From assembly GCA_020722705.1 (NCBI GenBank), contig DYKI01000001.1, positions 62,001 through 126,000 on the forward strand: 64,000 bases of DNA. The letters are read 5' to 3'. Shown here piece after piece: positions 32,176 to 36,656 of the stretch (positions within the stretch are counted from its first letter, which is position 1; every line of letters starts with the position of its first letter). A model generated the notes under the pieces. The model made no database searches. It saw only the letters and a program-made list of their open reading frames with translations, and had not been told where the DNA came from. The DNA comes from Chthonomonas calidirosea (GTDB lineage: Bacteria; Armatimonadota; Chthonomonadetes; Chthonomonadales; CAJBBX01). Both the position numbers and the translations under genes were made by a program.

Positions 32176-32339
32176 GGGCCGTCGCGCGCGCAATACATAT
32201 AACGCGGCCCAAGAATCCTGCAACATCCGTCCCACCCCGTTGTCACACCCCTCGGTAAGCAATCTTCACGAAGAGGTTCTCTACGATGCAGACAATCCGC
32301 AACAGCAGCAACGCTCATCAAATCCAGGAGGTGACGGTG

Positions 32340-33305
32340 ATGCAATGTCAAGACGTCTGGGATCTCCTTTCGGCCTACGCCGATGGAGAAACCAACGATC
32401 ACGAGACCCAGGTGGTCCAAGCTCATATCGCTGTTTGCAAGGACTGCGCTCGGGATCTCCAGTTCATGCTGGGAACTCAGGAAGCCCTGCAAGCCATCCC
32501 CGAGGTTGAGCCGCCTATCAGTCTTCGCTCGGCGATCCTTGCAGCTACAGTCAACAGGCCCAGCCTGACCGAGCGCTTCGCGACGGCGGTCCGCCGGGGT
32601 CTCGCTCCTGCTCCGGTGCGCTACGGCGCTCTCGCGGCAGCAGGCGCGGCTGCAGCCCTGACAGCGGTGACTATCCGAGACAGCAACAACCCGGTGCACT
32701 ACGTTCCCAACGAGCCGACGATCGTCGCCACGGTTCCCAATCCGAGCGACGCCAATCCGTCCGCTCCTTCGGGGCTGTCGGTGGACTTGCTGGATGCCTA
32801 CGAGCCGGAGCCGAGCGTGACCTCAAGCGCAGCGCCGAGAACCAGAAATGTCCGCATCCGACGGCATGAGCATCGCACGGGCGTCAAGCTGGCGAGCGCA
32901 TCGCGTCCGGCAGCCAACCGTCGCAACGCTAAGGCTGCGGCGAACCCGACGCCCGATGTACGCCCCAACCAGCCGGCGATTATCGAGGATCTGAGCGTCG
33001 CATCGGTGCCCGGATATGGGAACGACCCGGATGTGACCGCTGAACCCGAGCCCACGACGCGAACCCTCGTTGCCTCATCGGACAGCGCTTCCGGAGACAC
33101 TTCCAGCGCTTCAGCACAAACGAGCGATCGCGGCGCCCGCATCGTTCTGACGGCGTCATCGGTATCGCTCGATCCTGCCCAGGTGGCGACGCTTGCCGAC
33201 CTCCGGCGCTCGTTGGGTCACCAGGCTGCCCGCAATGCTGCCGATCCGGCTTCGACCCGACGCGACAGGCAGATCCGTGTGGACGTGATCCGAGGCAGCT
33301 TCTAA
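32340..33305 (+). CDS. Zinc-finger anti-sigma-factor-like membrane protein
   Basis: A 321-residue protein whose N-terminus is a zf-HC2 anti-sigma domain. CQDVWDLLSAYADGE leads to HIAVCKDC, the His-x3-Cys-x2-Cys zinc motif, and a helix follows. A short hydrophobic segment at about residues 95-115 (YGALAAAGAAAALTAVTI) may cross the membrane. The rest is Pro/Ser/Ala-rich with no domain. This layout fits a regulator that holds an ECF sigma factor inside and senses outside. No sigma gene is adjacent. AGGAGG precedes a GTG (32337) and the ATG (32340), and either could be the start. The next gene, 48 bases on, encodes a large outer-membrane protein. Confidence 0.82.
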   Translation: MQCQDVWDLLSAYADGETNDHETQVVQAHIAVCKDCARDLQFMLGTQEALQAIPEVEPPISLRSAILAATVNRPSLTERFATAVRRGLAPAPVRYGALAAAGAAAALTAVTIRDSNNPVHYVPNEPTIVATVPNPSDANPSAPSGLSVDLLDAYEPEPSVTSSAAPRTRNVRIRRHEHRTGVKLASASRPAANRRNAKAAANPTPDVRPNQPAIIEDLSVASVPGYGNDPDVTAEPEPTTRTLVASSDSASGDTSSASAQTSDRGARIVLTASSVSLDPAQVATLADLRRSLGHQAARNAADPASTRRDRQIRVDVIRGSF

Positions 33306-33353
33306 CCGCAACACCATCCAGCAAGTCAAGGCACCTCTGATGGAGGTACGTTC

Positions 33354-36300
33354 ATGAAACGAAACCGAACTGCAAGACTGGCCACGCAACTGGCAGCGGG
33401 CGCTCTGATGGCGAGTGTCCGCTTCGGCGCTTCTGCCCAGACGCCGGCTGCAGCCCCATTTGACCTCACCGGCAAGCTGGAGAGGCCGAGCGCATTCGCG
33501 GGCCAGAACCTCGCATACGCGGACAAGAACGGCGAAGCCACCCGTGCTTCCAAGCCCTTCCTCGAGACCCTTCGAGGCAATGGAACTCGGGCCGGCTACA
33601 TCCTCTCGCACGGCGGTGTCGTGCCTGCGTCCGTTCGCGTTTCGGTCGGCGCACGATCACTGCGAGCCAACACCGACTACAGCCTTGACTACAACAGCGG
33701 GATGCTCATCTTCTCCGAGCCGGTTCGCCGGTTCGACACCGTGACAGTCTCCTACTCCTACGTCGAGGGCATGGACGGCTCCCGATCGGTCGGCCAAACC
33801 AACGGCCTTACCATGAACTTCCGCGGAACGACAATGAACTTCGGTTTCGGAGTCTCCTCGTTCAACGGGCTCGACTTCAACAGCTACGGCCTCGCCATGA
33901 ACGGCAAGGTCGGTAAAGGCGGCACTCTGAAGGGCCTCATGTACTTCAGCACTCCCGCCGCAAGCAACGGCAACGTCGTCGGTCGCACAGACGCGACCCG
34001 AGCGTCCAATGCCAAGCGCAACCAGGCCGCGGCCAAGGACGACAGCCTGATCACTCAGGACCTGTCCATGAAGGTCGGCAACGCTTCAGTTAGGGCCACC
34101 TACCAGAACGTCGGCAGCAACTTCGGCGGCTTCCAGGCCATGCGCCAGTCGAATGCCAACAACGCCGACCTCCTGAAGGAGATCGCTACGCTTGAGAAAG
34201 AGCGAGGCATCCGGCGACTGGGCTTCGGCACCGCACTGCAGCTTGGCGCGGGCAACACGGCCGGCGTTGACTGGGATCGCATCTCGGACGCGCAGGGCGA
34301 TGTGACCAAGCACGGGCTGTCGCTGAACCTGAAAGGAATGACCTTCCAGTACAGCGACCTGTCCATTGACAAGGGATTCGCCGCATTCAAGAGCCTGCGT
34401 GAGGGCGAAGCGGGCCAATGGGCTCGTGAGCGTGGCATCCGTCGTACCGCCATGAGCCTGGGGCTCACCCCGGGCAAGGATAGCGCACTAGGCTTCGGCC
34501 AGACCACCCTCCGTGACGCGTCCGGTGCGCTTACGCGCCAAACGGCCTCGTACAGCACCAAGGCGATGGGCTTCAGCTACAGCCATCGAACGGCCGACAA
34601 GTCCTTCAGACGCCTGACCGATCTGTCGGACGCCGAGAAGAACGAACTCGCCTTGGAGATTCGGCGCCAGTTCAACGCCAACGCAGCGGTCGGTGAGGTT
34701 ACGCAAAAGGACCGCCAGCAGCTTGCATCCGAAGCCGGCTTGGACCGGACACGTTTGGGCTTCCGGACGGCGCTGGGCAAGCAGCAGTCCCTCGCGCTCA
34801 ACCAGTTCACCATCTCCGATGGTAGTGGAAGCATACGTCGCAACACGCTTTCCCTGTCGGGCAAGGCGTTCACACTCAACTACCTCAGCCAGTCCATTGA
34901 CAGCGGCTACTCACGCCTGGGGAGCATGAGCGACTTCGAGAGAGGGCAGTTCGGCAATGAGCGCGGCATTCGGCGCAACGCGCTGGACTTCGCCATGAAG
35001 CTCAATGCATCCACGTCGCTCTCGTACAGCCAGTCGAGCTACGGCGACGATTCCGGCAGCCTTTCGCGGCAGTCGCTGGCCTACGCGTCCAAGGGCGTCA
35101 ACGCTCGCTTGAACCTCTCCGACACGGATCAATCTTTCGCGCGCGCGCGAGACCTCGCCGGATTGAACGATGCCGAGCGCAAGGTCATCGAGGAGGAGCG
35201 CGGCTTCAAGCGAATGGACTTCGCCGCAGACGTGACGGCGTTCAAGGGCCTTACGCTGAACACCTACGTCTACAACGCCCGCAACGCCGAAGCCGATCAG
35301 TCCCGAAATCGCTTCCGCCACTTCGCGCTCTGGACGCCTTCCAGGACCAGCAGGGTGTCCTTCCTGAATGAAGGCGCCTCGACGATTGCCGGCGGCATCA
35401 CAACCAACGGCGTTGACCACACGCTCATCGCGTTCGATCAGCAGCTCGCCCGAGGAGCCAAGCTGAACCTGTTCACCGACACCGTTCGCACGGTGAACGG
35501 ATCGGACACGAGCTCCGTGGTCACCAACTTCGCCCACTACGAGACCGATCGCGGCAAGGCCAACAACCTGATGGCCGAGATGAAGCGGATTCAGTTCTCC
35601 AACAACCGCTTCGAGAACACGACGCAGGTTGACATGAACCTGCGGCCGGCGAAGAACATGTCGCTCCGACTGAACCACCTGAACGTAGACCGCGGTTCCG
35701 AGCCTTCGGCGATGACCAACGGGGTCGAGATGGGGCTTCAGTTGAGCAAGACGCTCGCCTTCTCCGGTTCCTACAGCCTCACCCAGACAAACAACGGCAC
35801 GGACGCTGCCGCCAAGGCGTTCTCACTCTCCGGCATGCTGGGCAGCAACCTGAACATCAAGGGAACGTACAGCGAGGCCGGCGTCGCGGGCCGCAATCGC
35901 CGTGCTGCATCGGACATCGCCGTCAGCAACGCGAAGCCGTTCTCCTTCCTGGGCCTTCGCGACACCACCATGACGTTCAAGTACGTCGCCCTCAATGACA
36001 AGGGCCGCAAGCAAAGCGAGGGTGTCGCCGGGAGCATTCAGGGCAAACTCGGCAAGAACCAGCTCGCCTTCGAGTACGGCGGATCCCTTGATCCGAAGAA
36101 CAACAGCTCGGTCTCTCGTGCCATTCGCTTCGTCAGCGATCGCAACGAGAAGCTGCCCCTGCACTTCGATATCATGTACAAGGCCAGGAACCTGAACCAT
36201 GGCGGCGTCCAGCTTGTTCGCCGTTACAACCTTGGCCTCCGCATGGACAAGAGCACCGAGCTGACCTACACGTACTCCTCGCTTCCCGAGGATGGCGCAG

Positions 36301-36656
36301 GCAGGATGCAGCCGCTCGTTAGCTCGGCATTCTCCCTGAAGCGTGCTTTCAATGCCCACACCAACTTCGCGCTGAACTACACCACCAATGTGGACATGGG
36401 CAAGCGCACGTCCGTCCGCAAACTGGGGGCCATGCTTCAGACCAGGATCACCAAGCTGACCGCAGTCCAGGTTGGCTACAGCGTGGACATGAGCAACCTC
36501 AACGGGCAGAACACCAACGCCCACACGGTTTCCATGAGCTTCGATCGCCGCATCAGCGGCGACAACGTCCTTGCGTTCGGCGCCGCCTACACGAAGAACA
36601 TGAACGGCGCGGCCGACGATGTCCAGGGCACGGTCGAGTTCAAGACCCGCTTCTAA
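33354..36656 (+). CDS. Large outer-membrane beta-barrel protein with a 76-residue repeat
   Basis: An 1100-residue exported protein with a signal peptide ending near ASAQ at residue 29. Residues 85-138 form a beta domain with the pattern LRANTDYSLDYNSGMLIFSE, seen in many envelope proteins. From about 240 on, the sequence is alternating amphipathic strands ending in VEFKTRF, a typical final barrel strand with terminal Phe. Residues 265-640 contain a repeat: strands, then a charged helix ending in ERGIRR. The motif starts at 283, 359, 536 and 615, and a degenerate copy is at 460. The spacings 76, 101, 76 and 79 imply a 76-residue unit with one 25-residue insertion. I recognise no named family. 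The gene follows the anti-sigma-like gene. Confidence 0.85.
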   Translation: MKRNRTARLATQLAAGALMASVRFGASAQTPAAAPFDLTGKLERPSAFAGQNLAYADKNGEATRASKPFLETLRGNGTRAGYILSHGGVVPASVRVSVGARSLRANTDYSLDYNSGMLIFSEPVRRFDTVTVSYSYVEGMDGSRSVGQTNGLTMNFRGTTMNFGFGVSSFNGLDFNSYGLAMNGKVGKGGTLKGLMYFSTPAASNGNVVGRTDATRASNAKRNQAAAKDDSLITQDLSMKVGNASVRATYQNVGSNFGGFQAMRQSNANNADLLKEIATLEKERGIRRLGFGTALQLGAGNTAGVDWDRISDAQGDVTKHGLSLNLKGMTFQYSDLSIDKGFAAFKSLREGEAGQWARERGIRRTAMSLGLTPGKDSALGFGQTTLRDASGALTRQTASYSTKAMGFSYSHRTADKSFRRLTDLSDAEKNELALEIRRQFNANAAVGEVTQKDRQQLASEAGLDRTRLGFRTALGKQQSLALNQFTISDGSGSIRRNTLSLSGKAFTLNYLSQSIDSGYSRLGSMSDFERGQFGNERGIRRNALDFAMKLNASTSLSYSQSSYGDDSGSLSRQSLAYASKGVNARLNLSDTDQSFARARDLAGLNDAERKVIEEERGFKRMDFAADVTAFKGLTLNTYVYNARNAEADQSRNRFRHFALWTPSRTSRVSFLNEGASTIAGGITTNGVDHTLIAFDQQLARGAKLNLFTDTVRTVNGSDTSSVVTNFAHYETDRGKANNLMAEMKRIQFSNNRFENTTQVDMNLRPAKNMSLRLNHLNVDRGSEPSAMTNGVEMGLQLSKTLAFSGSYSLTQTNNGTDAAAKAFSLSGMLGSNLNIKGTYSEAGVAGRNRRAASDIAVSNAKPFSFLGLRDTTMTFKYVALNDKGRKQSEGVAGSIQGKLGKNQLAFEYGGSLDPKNNSSVSRAIRFVSDRNEKLPLHFDIMYKARNLNHGGVQLVRRYNLGLRMDKSTELTYTYSSLPEDGAGRMQPLVSSAFSLKRAFNAHTNFALNYTTNVDMGKRTSVRKLGAMLQTRITKLTAVQVGYSVDMSNLNGQNTNAHTVSMSFDRRISGDNVLAFGAAYTKNMNGAADDVQGTVEFKTRF

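Follow-up and report, generated by a model that had tools for sequence, protein, structure and literature searches.

The open reading frame lies, as the first-pass annotation had it, at positions 33354-36656 of the window (the whole stretch of 64,000 nucleotides analysed here, from Chthonomonas calidirosea; Armatimonadota, Chthonomonadales) and encodes a product of 1100 amino acids. This product appears to be a very large outer-membrane beta protein built partly of repeats, and the main new point of the analysis is that a second gene, coding for a putative inner-membrane partner, lies upstream of it and is conserved with it. We hold it about evenly probable that the giant outer-membrane protein and its partner, the latter by means of a docking tail, couple the two membranes and act as a tether, a sensor or both. 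In Armatimonadota, which are diderm, the outer membrane has to our knowledge been little studied, and no relevant work turned up in the open-access papers searched. The features of the two genes are listed in Table 1.

Table 1. Features of the barrel gene and of its upstream partner gene in the window
Feature	Position	Strand	Basis
Partner encoded upstream, conserved, 339 aa; 32340 is a possible start	32286..33305	+	Pfam, homologues, neighbourhoods
zf-HC2 domain of partner, residues 21-55, HIAVCKDC	32346..32450	+	Pfam PF13490, E = 5e-11
Predicted membrane helix of partner, residues about 112-131, with basic residues N-terminal to it	32619..32678	+	sequence; homologue hydropathy
C-terminal strand tail of partner, RQIRVDVIRGSF	33267..33302	+	tail comparison
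Giant repeat protein, putatively outer-membrane, 1100 aa	33354..36656	+	ORF, orthologues, AF2
Signal-peptide-like N-terminus, residues 1-29 (...GASAQ)	33354..33440	+	sequence; hydrophobic helix predicted at 7-23
N-terminal beta domain, residues ~66-140, DYxxDYxxGxLxFxxPV motif	33549..33773	+	homologue comparison, AF2
Diverged first unit, residues 178-260	33885..34133	+	repeat HMM, weak
Repeat unit 1, residues 276-346, ERGIRR at 283	34179..34391	+	motif, repeat HMM
Repeat unit 2, residues 347-421, ERGIRR at 359, DASG at 388	34392..34616	+	motif, repeat HMM
Long helical connector, residues 422-447	34617..34694	+	motif spacing, HMM, alignment, AF2
Repeat unit 3, residues 448-522, EAGLDR at 460, DGSG at 489	34695..34919	+	motif, HMM
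Repeat unit 4, residues 524-599, ERGIRR at 536, DDSG at 565	34923..35150	+	motif, HMM
Partial unit 5, residues 604-653, ERGFKR at 615, runs into the non-repeat half	35163..35312	+	HMM
C-terminal non-repeat half, residues 619-1098, 29 predicted strands	35208..36647	+	AF2
C-terminal strand ending GTVEFKTRF, outer-membrane-type beta-signal	36624..36653	+	sequence

The module is widespread in Armatimonadota yet has no confident name in the family libraries searched. With a profile of the barrel family (E <= 1e-10) matches were obtained in 163 of 205 Armatimonadota genomes, and in 155 of the 194 genomes of at least 90% completeness and at most 5% contamination; a few of the weakest of these matches may have just the N-terminal domain in common with the family. 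In an alignment scan with two short patterns, by which other phyla were partially covered, the loci with a named phylum belonged to Armatimonadota, and the closest named relative was a Chthonomonadales MAG (76% identical). Sequence searches of Pfam, NCBIfam and PDB gave no confident match, the best in Pfam (DUF2460, E = 0.04) lying below the cut-off.

In most members the partner gene is found directly upstream of the barrel gene and on the same strand. It is the only neighbour conserved over most of the phylum; the others vary, and purH, purN, kpsF, kdsC, miaA, hfq and dapF stand beside the barrel gene only in f1, the family of the window. In the window the two genes share one reading frame and lie 48 nt apart, interrupted by a single TAA (33303-33354); in family f6 they overlap by ATGA. 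The partner consists of a zf-HC2 domain, a predicted membrane helix, a tether rich in P, A, S and T, and a C-terminal strand. The zf-HC2 domain was matched in 18 of the 21 partners tested, and the window partner contains HxxxCxxC. The hydropathy scan used to place the membrane helix chose a later segment in three members. The tether, predicted to be disordered as judged from its composition, is 150-260 residues long in nearly all members, and the C-terminus shows strand-helix-strand conservation in the alignment. Partners of family f3 have lost the zinc ligands and kept the tail, so that what is conserved is the tail and not the zinc site. Nothing partner-like was seen just upstream of the barrel gene at several examined loci of family f14 or at locus L087, and the upstream proteins of L140 (f27) and L148 (f28) have no terminal F. 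The barrel can thus exist without an F-tailed partner.

F is the last residue of every one of the 37 distinct partners, a count that does not represent 37 independent events because the partners are homologous; in the same genomes, 1 of 28 zf-HC2 proteins taken as controls has the terminal F. The tail has the pattern Phi-x-Phi-D-Phi-Phi-K-x-R-F. Positions -5, -6 and -8 are hydrophobic in about 90% or more of the partners, position -7 is mostly D, N, G or S, position -4 mostly K, R, S or T, and position -2 mostly R. The barrel proteins end in Phi-x-Phi-[DE]-Phi-K-T-R-F, with Phi at -7, D or E at -6, Phi at -5, K or R at -4, T at -3, R at -2 and F at -1. Judged by these patterns, the partner tail resembles the barrel's own last strand, made longer by one residue. 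The single F-ending control protein (C45 of genome G006, L126:7575-8780) has no adjacent sigma gene among the matches listed and is encoded upstream of a CBM9-domain protein, not of a barrel. Some zf-HC2 proteins of f14 genomes (L133, L135, L136) carry another C-terminal pattern, VRVYDxxGxPI or VKIYAPN.

Among the sigma matches listed, no sigma-70 region-2 gene was located within 1 kb of any of eight partners from eight genomes, whereas 57 of the 63 other zf-HC2 matches had a sigma gene at less than 1 kb (Fisher p = 2.8e-7). A sigma factor encoded in cis was considered for the partner and rejected, none being near it among these matches. It is possible, although rather unlikely, that the barrel serves as a large channel or surface protein of the outer membrane and that the partner is an ordinary anti-sigma factor whose sigma factor is encoded elsewhere, the shared terminal F being inherited as part of a small periplasmic beta-alpha-beta sensor domain that makes no contact with the barrel. 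The frequency of zf-HC2 matches and the strand-helix-strand conservation of the partner C-terminus would fit such a role. So would an AlphaFold2 (AF2) prediction in which the last 55 residues of the partner were joined to the barrel through the in-frame TAA: the tail remained undocked (pLDDT 30-35), and two short strands were predicted in the partner C-terminus with low confidence. The failed docking counts weakly against docking of the tail, the alignment being shallow and the junction artificial. The lack of a sigma neighbour, among the matches listed, for any of the eight partners argues against an ordinary anti-sigma factor, and so does the terminal F, which is invariant in an alignment averaging 22% identity over the rest of the protein. 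The f3 partners, in which the tail has outlived the zinc ligands, argue in the same direction; it is the loss of these ligands in one lineage that sets the tether idea apart from the anti-sigma idea.

The barrel protein had been described in the first-pass annotation as containing a 76-residue strand-helix repeat. ERGIRR or ERGFKR starts exactly at the residues noted there (283, 359, 536 and 615), with the degenerate EAGLDR at 460. The second motif, D-x-SG-x-[LI]-x-R, is present, but starts at residues 388, 489 and 565, in each case three residues ahead of the approximate positions 391, 492 and 568 that had been reported. Successive spacings of the first motif are 76, 101, 76 and 79 residues; the period of 76 therefore holds with the exception of the spacing of 101, where one unit has a longer helical connector. 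An iterated 76-position profile detected four clear units in the window protein, a diverged one in front of them and a partial one behind. The self-similarity on which the repeat had been made to depend proved far above the background. In Smith-Waterman alignments compared with 200 shuffles, z was 14 for units 1-2, 13 for units 1-3 and for units 2-3, 18 for units 2-4 and 10 for units 3-4; alignments involving the partial fifth copy were merely 0-4.5 sd above the shuffles. When residues 251-640 were compared with themselves, offset 177 (76 + 101) stood 7.8 sd and offset 76 stood 5.2 sd above the other offsets.

In 44 of 45 homologues an HMM of the 76-position unit found between 3 and 7 near-complete units; in the other, L087, it found one. 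The sole other match of this HMM among 1161 ORFs was L085, a frame-broken copy of the barrel family, and reversed sequences gave three weak matches. Homologues with different repeat numbers, which had been suggested as something to search for, thus do occur, and the count varies by whole units; gain or loss of entire units can be seen in the alignment, for example in L042, L044, L045 and L038. A given unit of the window protein is 67-73% identical to the unit of the same number in the nearest relative, whereas its identity to the remaining units within the same chain is only 25-37%. Since units match their positional equivalents far better than one another, the duplication is ancient and not the product of slippage; recent or slipping repeats were ruled out by the same identities. 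To judge from the alignment, the ancient duplication was followed by gain or loss of whole four-strand blocks.

In front of the repeats an envelope-type beta domain had been proposed. Residues ~66-140 do form strands in the prediction, and the domain recurs before a Porin_4 barrel, in a 667-aa protein encoded upstream of the partner on the minus strand (L061:12183-14186) that has this N-terminal beta domain in common with the window protein (35% over the first 200 aa). Its presence in front of both kinds of barrel makes the domain a module common to Armatimonadota outer-membrane proteins.

The AF2 model of the barrel protein, made from 26 sequences, had a mean pLDDT of 82.6 and a pTM of 0.49; a second run with another alignment gave nearly identical strands and again a pTM of 0.49. 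Counted from the listed elements, the model contains 50 antiparallel strands of at least 9 residues between residues 159 and 1098, a count that omits two shorter strands, one of 3 residues and one of 5 (152-156). A full unit opens with a helix, followed by two strands joined by a tight turn, the DxSG loop, and two further strands likewise joined by a tight turn, so that each repeat unit is predicted to be two hairpins, that is four strands. The expected helices between strand blocks are present in the model as linkers at residues 254-286, 339-362, 415-463, 516-539 and 592-618. Each of them follows an odd strand (strand 1 being taken to start at residue 159 and to go outward), which places all helical loops on the same side, as the structural check proposed for them had asked. 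If both ends of the chain are periplasmic, this side is probably the cell surface. Two suggestions about the helices and repeats did not hold: a unit of 76 aa with four strands is too small to be one barrel of a fibre-like stack, and the helices are short for plugs, for which there was no plug-domain match.

An aromatic C-terminal strand marks outer-membrane proteins, and the window protein combines such a beta-signal with antiparallel strands in the model and a start that is signal-peptide-like by sequence. Foldseek returned ApoB100 first in both searches, followed by LptD, which was the best outer-membrane match, and by SprA, SlpA/SDBC, PapC and TonB receptors; the probabilities were high, yet the TM-scores were about 0.1-0.25. 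These matches indicate an outer-membrane-like fold class, compatible with one barrel, two barrels or an open belt. Of the outer-membrane barrel initially assigned, the all-beta up-and-down fold, the aromatic C-terminus and the likeness to known barrels could be upheld; closure of the 50 strands into one barrel, at a pTM of 0.49 in both runs, is putative. The same low pTM, the top E-value of ApoB100 and a strand number above the 36 of SprA (PMC7463736) are what one would expect of an open amphipathic beta-belt or of two barrels in one chain. We regard this arrangement as unlikely: the chain ends in a beta-signal, the turns in the model are short, and all Foldseek matches after ApoB100 are outer-membrane barrels.

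In the explanation that we propose, the 33354-36656 product would be an outer-membrane beta-sheet protein of very large size that most likely forms one wide barrel; its front half has grown through ancient duplication of a unit of four strands, or two hairpins, and carries helical loops on one face. The partner would be an inner-membrane protein whose zf-HC2 head is cytoplasmic and anti-sigma-like and whose disordered tether has the length needed to span the periplasm. The C-terminal strand of the partner would mimic the barrel's last strand and dock either with the barrel itself or with the machinery that assembles it. Together the two proteins could then link the outer membrane with the inner membrane or the cytoplasm, and serve as a tether and/or as a sensor of barrel assembly or load. 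We infer closure in the membrane, docking and the tether or sensor role from the combined evidence. The tail might instead bind BamA or a DegS-like sensor, as its ligand or as a decoy, and report general outer-membrane protein assembly, the barrel being the commonest client. BamA is present, and the tail has features of outer-membrane C-terminal signals; its specific linkage to one barrel gene over most of the phylum, and its similarity to the last strand of that very barrel, make such a general role distinctly improbable.

It is very doubtful that the barrel replaces LptD in Armatimonadota and so supplies their missing lipopolysaccharide translocon: the top rank of LptD among the outer-membrane Foldseek matches, six genomes without a PF04453 match and the proximity of kpsF/kdsC would suit this role, but the kpsF linkage is limited to f1, LptD_N occurs elsewhere in 5 of the 6 genomes and not in the barrel, and absence of LptD is weak evidence since the PF04453 model finds no match in the control genomes of Synechococcus, Thermus and Deinobacterium either. 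In the Pfam search neither LptD nor LptD_N was matched in the barrel protein. The genomes without a PF04453 match were G000 (the window genome), G006, G047, G127, G035 and G056, though the kdo-synthesis genes of f1 adjoin the barrel.

Comparison with known systems led us to place the protein in a new family of its own, that of an outer-membrane beta protein accompanied by a conserved partner, and not to class it as a Dma, SprA, SlpA, TonB-dependent receptor or LptD protein, because the defining features of each are missing. FecI-FecR-FecA likewise has an anti-sigma-like inner-membrane protein beside an outer-membrane barrel; the present pair differs in having no plug or signalling-domain match and no adjacent sigma gene among the matches listed. 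No Pfam plug or barrel domain of TonB-dependent receptors was matched in the window protein or its homologues. TonB dependence was ruled out, as TonB_C had no match in G000, G006, G047 and G127. Deinococcus SlpA/SDBC is also a large outer-membrane barrel and was matched by Foldseek (7zgx, 8agd), and one homologue matches Pfam SlpA_C at 5e-6; the window protein, in contrast, has no SlpA_C or S-layer-homology (SLH) match and contains repeat units.

The SprA/Sov type 9 secretion translocon is alike in being a very large single-chain barrel, was matched weakly by Foldseek (8gl8, 6h3i), and presumably has a DYxxDY motif similar to the N-terminal one seen here, but sequence searches against models and structures gave no SprA family match, and about 50 strands are predicted as against 36. 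According to a 2020 review, SprA with its 36 strands is the largest outer-membrane barrel ever identified (PMC7463736). If our strand count is right, the Armatimonadota barrel exceeds it, and its size is altered between orthologues by gain or loss of whole four-strand units. Franklin et al. 2018 (PMC6340704) describe double-hairpin (four-strand) repeats within 8-stranded barrels; here, by comparison, there are at least four tandem units, with helical loops and a copy number that differs between orthologues.

The Dma proteins, found solely in Bacteroidota, have an architecture of inner-membrane helix, disordered tether and outer-membrane barrel (PMC13088901). The partner is like them in its anti-sigma-like head, single membrane helix, long disordered tether and C-terminal outer-membrane beta element, and head, helix and tether are likewise joined in one protein, save for the zinc ligands of f3. 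It differs in that the barrel is a separate and far larger protein, the partner itself having one strand, in that no adjacent ECF21 sigma gene or fused sigma domain was present among the matches listed, and in belonging to another phylum. A Dma-like architecture with a separate barrel and no sigma neighbour favours a tether or sensor, and by this analogy the reading we favour is a membrane-spanning device resembling a Dma protein split in two. The partner thereby offers a testable link between inner and outer membrane that would involve neither TonB nor a fused barrel.
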